From: Candidatus Gastranaerophilales bacterium
GTDB taxonomy: Bacteria > Cyanobacteriota > Vampirovibrionia > Gastranaerophilales > Gastranaerophilaceae
Reading direction: 5' to 3'
DNA: 64,000 bases
Assembly: GCA_944324305.1 (NCBI GenBank)
Contig: CALUVV010000008.1
Span: forward strand, 62,001-126,000
The translations under genes were made by a program, and so were the position numbers. Below are positions 8,266-64,000 of this stretch, piece after piece (the first letter of the stretch is position 1; the number at the start of each line of letters is the position of its first letter). Below the pieces are notes generated by a model. The model was not told the DNA's origin, ran no database searches, and saw nothing but the letters and a program-made list of their open reading frames with translations.

Positions 8266-8305
8266 ACAATTATAATAAGTAATAAAGAATTTTTAACATT
8301 AGTCG

Positions 8306-9412
8306 TTAAGGCAAATCGCCATTATCATCAATATCATCTGATTTATCTAAAAATAATTGTTCAGCCTTTAAACTAACATCACGACTATTACAAACGCTGA
8401 ACTTTTTAAATAAACTGGCTATATGTGCCTTTACAGTATGTGTCGATATAGAAAATTTTTCAGCAATTTCATTATTACTATAACCTTCCATGACAGCTTT
8501 TAATACTCCAATCTCTCTTTCCGTTAAGTTAGGTAGTTTCCCTTTTCCTAAAACCTTAACTTCAACCATTACTTTATTATCTACAGATATATGAAAATAT
8601 TTCTTAATAAATTGAATAAATCTTTCAGAATTATACATATAAAACAATTGTTCCGTTTCATCATTAAATTCTTTTATTAATTCAACTCTACAGCCTGTAT
8701 TTTTGTGTTTTACAATGGTCCACCAATCTTCTTTAACATCATCTGTAATAAAAATTATTGGCTTTCCCACGCACAAAACATGGTCAATAATTTGTTTCCA
8801 TATAATCAAATCACCGTATTTTTCTCTCTCAGACTTTTTATCTTTGTCCATATAACCGGGCGGAATACTGTTTTCATATCTGGTCTTTCCCTCTTTATAG
8901 ACATATTTTAACTGTTCGTCAGTATATGGAGAACCAACCTTATTCTCATATAAGCCGGAAATTTTTTTTAGAATAAAATCATTGTCCCGTAATTTAGGCT
9001 GTTTTTCCTTATCACGGGAAATTGAAAGTAAAATGTCTTTAAAAGAGGTTTCTATAACTTTTAAAATTTTACTGTTATCTGCATCTTCCCAGGACGGATA
9101 CCTCATATTCTTAATTTCTCTTTGAATTTTATCAGAATACTCTTTAATCAATTTCTCAGTTTTATCATATACGCACTCGACCTCATTGATAACAGAAAGT
9201 CTGTTTTCGTGGTATTCCCAGCCGATTTGGTATGGAATCCATAAACGTTCTTTTAATTTTTCTAAAATATAAAACCAGGCATCACGAGTACTATTAGAAT
9301 ATCTGTATAGATTCAAAAATATATTCGTATCAAATACAAATAAAGCATTATTCCATAAAAAATCATATTCAAAATCCTGCATTTTATAATATTCTTTAAA
9401 TAATTTTTTCAT
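8306..9412 (-). CDS. PIN-like nuclease domain fused to LuxR-type DNA-binding domain
   Basis: 368 residues. The N-terminal part resembles the PIN-like domain group found in predicted RNases. Its acidic motifs include FVFDTNIFLNLYRY (Asp28), REKYGDLIIW (a likely second acidic site) and PIIFITDDVKEDWW near residues 215-230. From about residue 295 to 350 there is a complete LuxR/GerE helix-turn-helix (LTEREIGVLK, SNNEIAEKFSISTHTVKAH). The family assignment is from motifs only. The gene starts 48 bases downstream of tRNA-His in the same direction, with a terminator between and its own AAGGAG site. The combination suggests a sequence-targeted or self-regulating RNase. Function unknown. Confidence 0.75.
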   Translation of the reverse strand: MKKLFKEYYKMQDFEYDFLWNNALFVFDTNIFLNLYRYSNSTRDAWFYILEKLKERLWIPYQIGWEYHENRLSVINEVECVYDKTEKLIKEYSDKIQREIKNMRYPSWEDADNSKILKVIETSFKDILLSISRDKEKQPKLRDNDFILKKISGLYENKVGSPYTDEQLKYVYKEGKTRYENSIPPGYMDKDKKSEREKYGDLIIWKQIIDHVLCVGKPIIFITDDVKEDWWTIVKHKNTGCRVELIKEFNDETEQLFYMYNSERFIQFIKKYFHISVDNKVMVEVKVLGKGKLPNLTEREIGVLKAVMEGYSNNEIAEKFSISTHTVKAHIASLFKKFSVCNSRDVSLKAEQLFLDKSDDIDDNGDLP

Positions 9413-9433
9413 AAATCAGCTCCTTGACAACAA

Positions 9434-9457
9434 AAAAGCCCTGCGAACAGGGCTTTT
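9434..9457 (-). terminator. Rho-independent terminator after tRNA-His
   Basis: Stem AAAAGCCCTG/CAGGGCTTTT with a 4-base loop and six T on the minus strand, directly behind the tRNA 3' end. Confidence 0.85.
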
Positions 9458-9460
9458 AAA

Positions 9461-9537
9461 TGGGGCGTCTGATGGGATTCGAACCCATGCATATCGGAAC
9501 CACAATCCGAGGTCTTAACCGCTTGACGACAGACGCC
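9461..9537 (-). tRNA. tRNA-His (GTG anticodon)
   Basis: On the minus strand a full cloverleaf can be drawn. A 7-bp acceptor stem GCGTCTG/CAGACGC is preceded by the extra 5' G typical of tRNA-His, opposite C73. The anticodon stem TCGGA/TCCGA closes the loop TTGTGGT, giving anticodon GTG. The T arm is ATGGGTTCGAATCCCAT. The 3' CCA is encoded in the DNA. Confidence 0.97.
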
Positions 9538-63524: not shown

Positions 63525-64000
63525 TTAAACCATGCCTTCTTTAACGGCTTTTACCGCAGCCTGCACTCTGTCATTTACACACATTTTTTGCAATATGGAA
63601 CAAACGTGAGCTTTTGCTGTATGAACACTTACTATAAGCTCCTTAGCTATTTCGGTGTTGCTTTTACCTGAGACAAGATGTTTTAAAACTTCAAATTCTC
63701 TTTCTGTAAGCGGAACACGGCCGTCAGTATTTGACTTACTGGGAAGAATTCCGATATTATCAATTTTAGGCAAAGAATTTAAAGTCATTTGTGCAACCAT
63801 AGGATCAATCCAGCACACACCCGTTGAAACATCTCTTACGACATCCGCCAATTTATTCGGATCAATATCTTTAAGGCAATAGGCGCTTGCTCCGGAACTT
63901 AAAGCGGCAATAACTTCTTCGCATCTGTCATGTGAGGTCAAGGCAATAATTTTTGAATCAAACATCATTTCTTTACATTTAACCATAGCTTCAATACCGT
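63525..64000 (-). CDS. NarL/LuxR-family response regulator (N-terminus cut by window edge)
   Basis: About 158 residues are visible and the frame remains open to base 64000. The receiver remainder shows IIALTSHD (conserved Thr/Ser) and AYCLKDI (conserved Lys). The C-terminal LuxR helix-turn-helix is LTEREFEVLKHLVSGKSN and IAKELIVSVHTAKAH. The phospho-acceptor Asp lies outside the window. The HTH is close to that fused to the PIN-like domain at 8306. Target genes unknown. Confidence 0.9.
   Translation of the reverse strand, partial: GIEAMVKCKEMMFDSKIIALTSHDRCEEVIAALSSGASAYCLKDIDPNKLADVVRDVSTGVCWIDPMVAQMTLNSLPKIDNIGILPSKSNTDGRVPLTEREFEVLKHLVSGKSNTEIAKELIVSVHTAKAHVCSILQKMCVNDRVQAAVKAVKEGMV

Follow-up and report, generated by a model that had tools for sequence, protein, structure and literature searches.

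The window, by which we mean the whole 64,000-nucleotide stretch analyzed here (contig CALUVV010000008.1 of a Candidatus Gastranaerophilales bacterium), carries on its reverse strand, at 8306..9412 with the stop codon counted, an intact open reading frame of 368 amino acids with an ATG start and no internal stop codon. The product joins a PIN_8 domain to a GerE/LuxR helix-turn-helix (HTH), and the gene is hereafter designated PIN_8-GerE. On the same strand, a Shine-Dalgarno sequence read directly from the DNA (AAGGAG, 9420..9425) lies 7 nt upstream of the ATG, and further upstream are an intrinsic terminator (9434..9457) and the gene for tRNA-His (GTG; 9461..9536). The gene thus has tRNA-His upstream and a DUF488 gene downstream, with gaps of 40-50 nt; no antitoxin or other partner gene fits between these two, and no defence gene adjoins PIN_8-GerE in the window, its neighbours being housekeeping genes and the DUF488 gene. 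Since the start codon is found only 21 nt past the tRNA-His terminator, the gene has little space for its own promoter and operator, and transcription may be driven by read-through past the terminator. A 21-nt inverted repeat (86%; 8338-8358/9399-9419) near both ends of the gene was equalled in 2 of 40 shuffles and is probably a chance product of A+T-rich DNA.

The tRNA-His gene follows rpaB in all 29 sister loci that extend far enough to show it, a count that includes the locus in the window (survey loci L071-L099 and window positions 9461-9536), and what lies on its 3' side varies from genome to genome: toxin-antitoxin-type pairs of an NTase_sub_bind (HEPN-like) gene and an MNT-type nucleotidyltransferase gene in three loci (L081, L092 and L099), PAPS-reductase-like (sulfurtransferase-like) genes in two others (L075 and L083), and also glycosyltransferases and Ogt. 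In L086, L091 and L096 the tRNA 3' end is repeated about 200 nt further on, as is typical of integration. In the closest sister genome (G004), the stretch 8267..9457 is absent and its place is taken by a 41-kb island enclosed by flanks that are 91-94% identical to those of the window; the DUF488 gene is retained there. The 3' side of tRNA-His is thus a genus-wide hypervariable insertion site, and PIN_8-GerE is an intact cargo gene that was acquired recently and horizontally. Its G+C content (0.27-0.33, versus 0.34-0.40 in much of the flanks) fits a recent acquisition, with the reservation that other dips occur too; direct repeats that could mark an element border around the gene were not found. 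The initial annotation had taken the neighbouring tRNA as a hint to the substrate of the nuclease. This does not hold, because the site is a hotspot that houses other cargo in sister genomes, and adjacency to the tRNA is therefore uninformative in this respect.

The N-terminal half of the protein is matched by Pfam PIN_8 (PF18476) over residues 24-245 (8678..9343, reverse strand), with an E-value of 8.9e-64 and 216 bits against a cut-off of 26.1, the match covering the whole model (1-227 of 227). Conservation was assessed in an alignment of 27 homologs from genomes and viral contigs, then extended to 40 with same-phylum genomes, the window protein being counted in both. D28 in the motif FDTN (codon at 9329..9331), E66 (9215..9217) and D201 in GDLIIW (8810..8812) are invariant in the 40-homolog alignment; D225 in ITDD (8738..8740) is invariant in the 27 homologs and conserved in at least 90% of the 40, and all four residues are present in the window protein. 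Also kept in the 27-40 homologs are N30 in FDTN, G200 and W205 in GDLIIW and D224 in ITDD, along with two further motifs, PPG.xD and KEDWW. The three acidic motifs named in the initial annotation are thus conserved in the homologs. NCBIfam has no family that covers the whole protein, a search of solved structures by sequence returned the HTH only, and in PADLOC-DB 2.0 the PIN half had no match, the only rows being HTH matches to CARF/CasR models and a chance-level Cas9 row (E 0.11).

An AlphaFold2 model built with 27 sequences has a mean pLDDT of 82.9, with most of the PIN part at 80-98 and the tail at 35-70; within the latter, the HTH block scores 43-70 and the final 30 residues fall below 50. 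Between the two halves of the predicted PIN active site, the model places a helical stretch (residues 61-180, 8873..9232; helices 61-102, 110-137, 146-154 and 165-180). When the model was compared with the PDB using VIA-align, the top 17 rows were all PIN/VapC-type chains, matched over model residues ~20-276; these include 1ye5_A (Z 9.2, rmsd 3.7, 142 of 142 residues aligned) and VapC2 (3zvk_B; Z 9.0, rmsd 3.5, 131 of 133). Foldseek alone was weak for this half (FitB, 2bsq, E 0.24, probability 0.84), and matched the LuxR half to the C-terminal domains of EsrB, VraR and LiaR with a probability of 1.00. Z scores of 8-9 are modest, but the matches form one consistent family and cover the small targets nearly in full, and Pfam and the conserved residues are independent evidence; on the model and the alignment together, the assignment of the N-terminal half to the PIN nuclease fold, with a full acidic set, is secure. 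The structure prediction that the initial annotation had called for thus returned a VapC-type PIN fold and a LuxR C-terminal domain; that annotation would have been contradicted by a non-nuclease fold or by acidic residues that vary among orthologs, and the PIN fold and the conserved acidic set leave neither standing. From fold and active site we infer a nuclease activity, the PIN half being probably an active enzyme, and its substrate is probably RNA.

The C-terminal part is a full GerE/LuxR HTH, as had been annotated from the outset, and is supported both by Pfam and by the structures of LuxR C-terminal domains. It spans residues 295-346 (8375..8530, reverse strand), has the sequence LTEREIGVLK..NEIAEKFSISTHTVKAHI and matches GerE (PF00196) with an E-value of 9.8e-16 and 57.6 bits against a cut-off of 23.5, over model positions 2-53 (52 of 57). 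The order is therefore a conserved nuclease followed by a complete HTH, and with both Pfam matches far beyond chance the presence of a PIN-like nuclease and a LuxR-type domain in one reading frame stands confirmed. NarL/FixJ-type LuxR regulators share the C-terminal GerE HTH, as do standalone GerE proteins; in the window protein, however, a PIN nuclease takes the place of the receiver domain of the response regulators, for which no Pfam match was obtained, PIN_8 filling the N-terminus. The likeness that had been drawn to the NarL-type regulator near position 63525 is real (45% identity), but of the GerE sequences compared, standalone proteins of 72-101 amino acids from sister genomes come closest (50-54%). 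Reading frames for such proteins were seen in sister-genome loci L003-L009 and L018; several of them lie tail-to-tail with a gene that we take to be lepA, and overlap its 3' end. A GerE domain tree lacked the resolution to place the origin of the window domain, which sits on a long branch; a derivation from a GerE gene of the host genus is thus no more than a possibility.

A search for the same fusion in related genomes had also been proposed. The GerE tail was found in the window protein only, among 65 distinct PIN_8 proteins compared, and hence in none of the other 64, so that its functional meaning hangs on one sequence. The fusion did not recur in 72,556 plasmid and 50,697 phage records or in viral contigs (two scans), nor in 84,980 species genomes (searched with conserved peptide patterns, of limited sensitivity) or about 1,980 whole genomes from several phyla. 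A separate GerE gene was likewise not seen beside other PIN_8 genes in the flanks examined, and the literature search returned nothing on PF18476 or on the combination of PIN domain, GerE and fusion.

What the PIN_8 proteins have in common is a conserved core of about 285 amino acids followed, after a sharp edge near residue 275-300, by a fast-changing C-terminal tail. In related pairs, identity drops from 84% in the core to 31% in the tail (L047/L049), from 69% to 22% (L025/L029) and from 97% to 58% (L063/L065). Tail length, in the 65 distinct proteins (all with a readable 3' part), ranges from 0 to 230 amino acids, and one member (L116, 283 amino acids) is PIN-only, with the tail absent. Few tails carry a recognised domain: KTSC in L056 and GerE in the window protein. 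The last 90 residues of the L135 tail look like a winged HTH by eye, but Pfam and the PDB give no support, so that a recurrence of DNA-binding tails among PIN_8 proteins is not demonstrated; the L050 tail, checked for the same fold, gave a model without confidence. That a swapped or fast-changing C-terminal module is general in these proteins is a point absent from the initial annotation. The tail is probably a changeable module for sensing or localisation, and, judged by sequence, the LuxR domain is one case of tail exchange, one of many tails on proteins that generally have such a module.

The family is patchy in distribution. Within the genus, PIN_8 occurs in the window genome alone (1 of 33), within the phylum in 18 of 386 sampled genomes, and in other phyla in about 1-2% of genomes at stricter cut-offs. 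The group to which the window genome belongs has an RpaB-type regulator, and relatives sampled in the phylum reach 9 Mb; the host is probably a non-photosynthetic gut bacterium of the cyanobacterial lineage (Gastranaerophilales-like). It is present on 61 plasmid records, some of them tiny, such as those of 2.1 kb (E. coli, two genes) and 4.2 kb (Psychrobacter, with rep, mob and PIN_8); among 5,426 E. coli genomes, one PIN_8 plasmid was found at high identity, and a second probe matched nothing. A handful of viral contigs carry PIN_8, and the INPHARED phages carry none. Among the neighbours of PIN_8 in other genomes, which speak for association by individual examples with no background frequency behind them, are type I restriction-modification genes (L044, L040 and L035) and, in L043, an OLD-family nuclease gene followed by PIN_8. 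On a Pseudoalteromonas megaplasmid, PIN_8 (L135:4608-6128) comes directly after dndBCDE, starting 43 nt past dndE; PIN RNases have been reported in Dnd neighbourhoods (PMC10853773).

Set against known systems, the window protein stays within a known class of proteins, of which it is an unusual variant. With other PIN_8 proteins (PF18476; 'PIN-like domain-containing protein' in NCBI) it shares the core, the acidic residues, the PPGY and DDVKEDWW motifs and the occurrence as one-gene units, on chromosomes, plasmids and prophage-like contigs; it differs in its GerE tail, the others having other tails or none. VapC of VapBC has the same fold and acidic active site, but is a protein of about 130 amino acids with a separate antitoxin gene, whereas the window protein has 368, lacks a partner gene and carries a helical stretch of about 120 residues within its PIN domain; it thus falls outside type II VapBC modules, in which a small PIN toxin is encoded next to its antitoxin. 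DS-3, found with DefensePredictor, is an anti-phage system that consists of a single PIN protein with no antitoxin, and its catalytic mutants no longer defend (PMC13092281). Likened by description only, DS-3 and the window protein are both single proteins with a PIN domain split in sequence and no antitoxin gene; by the same measure they differ in that the PIN domain of DS-3 is described as divided between the N and C terminus, with no mention of a LuxR domain (PMC13092281).

At a probability of about one half, we favour the view that this hotspot cargo is a one-protein, VapC-like PIN_8 conditional RNase, probably acting in phage defence, with a LuxR tail that most likely tethers the protein or makes it self-regulating. 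The absence of a partner gene, together with the DS-3 precedent (PMC13092281), favours a self-contained protein. The PIN core would be a metal-dependent enzyme, probably an endoribonuclease, that is silenced in cis and released by a trigger, most likely infection by a phage, to shut down translation or arrest growth. The sensing or localising role of the tail would here fall to a DNA-binding LuxR/GerE domain that has no receiver and would most likely dimerise the protein on DNA, either its own control region or foreign DNA; once dimerised, the tail would set the level of the protein, or else hold or aim the nuclease. In this scheme we infer an RNA substrate and a defence role in the host, as well as DNA binding and its consequence.

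VapBC PIN toxins are normally autoregulated by their DNA-binding antitoxin, and the LuxR domain could replace that part of the antitoxin, repressing the gene in cis in a self-regulating one-protein toxin that would maintain the locus in the manner of an addiction module and have no anti-phage role. A DNA-binding domain in the same chain, the lack of a partner gene between tRNA-His and DUF488, and the MNT/HEPN-type pairs that fill this position in three of the sister genomes speak for such a toxin; however, the sequence offers no means of holding the PIN site off, repression cannot neutralise toxin already made, and the 21 nt behind the terminator are scant room for a promoter and operator, so that we regard it as unlikely, if still a credible contender. 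Recruitment of the PIN domain to specific DNA sites, or to nascent transcripts at those sites, through the LuxR domain would suit a complete HTH on a conserved nuclease and the frequent position of PIN_8 genes, in the examples above, beside DNA-modification systems; we hold it to be improbable, as no target site can be predicted and the tail of the dndBCDE-adjacent member resembles a winged HTH only by eye. The tail may also have been exchanged neutrally, the GerE domain having been gained, perhaps from a standalone gene of the host lineage, and adding at most nonspecific binding. Homolog tails that vary wildly or are absent, the singleton status of GerE and its nearest relatives among the short proteins of the host genus are what such an exchange would predict, but a useless HTH would be expected to decay and this one is complete at 52 of 57 positions, and the tree leaves its origin undemonstrated; we rate this as rather improbable. 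These three alternatives, the first two of which the initial annotation had also raised, cannot be told apart by sequence. Some PIN proteins cleave tRNA, and a housekeeping nuclease of tRNA processing or decay tied to the adjacent tRNA-His would account for the position of the gene. Cleavage of tRNA by VapC is also stated in PMC13092281. Such a role is scarcely tenable, as the gene is missing from the 32 other genomes of the genus, tRNA-His itself being present downstream of rpaB at 29 of 29 loci, and the slot is an insertion hotspot.

The pattern of the PIN_8 family holds more interest than this one fusion. Conserved nuclease, fast-changing tail, patchy distribution and restriction or Dnd neighbours make PIN_8 a candidate one-gene defence family, as yet uncatalogued, that can be put to the test. 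A bolder reading, which we offer as a long shot, is that PIN_8 would be a widespread one-gene immune family with a conserved nuclease and an exchangeable C-terminal sensor; here the LuxR part would be the sensor or switch, and DNA binding, or its loss, would control the RNase directly. If true, a transcription-factor domain would be coupled directly to an RNase in one polypeptide, a pairing absent from every other protein compared and from the literature search. In four alphaproteobacteria (L030:3458-9095; L026, L031 and L034), PIN_8 is the last gene of an overlapping operon that also encodes HATPase_c_3, an Mrr_cat/ResIII helicase and a 175-amino-acid protein of no recognised kind; domains were scanned in one of these genomes, and gene lengths and order are identical in the other three. 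The operon resembles an uncatalogued restriction-like defence system, and in L041 it is partly deleted, such that the ATPase reading frame continues into the PIN half.
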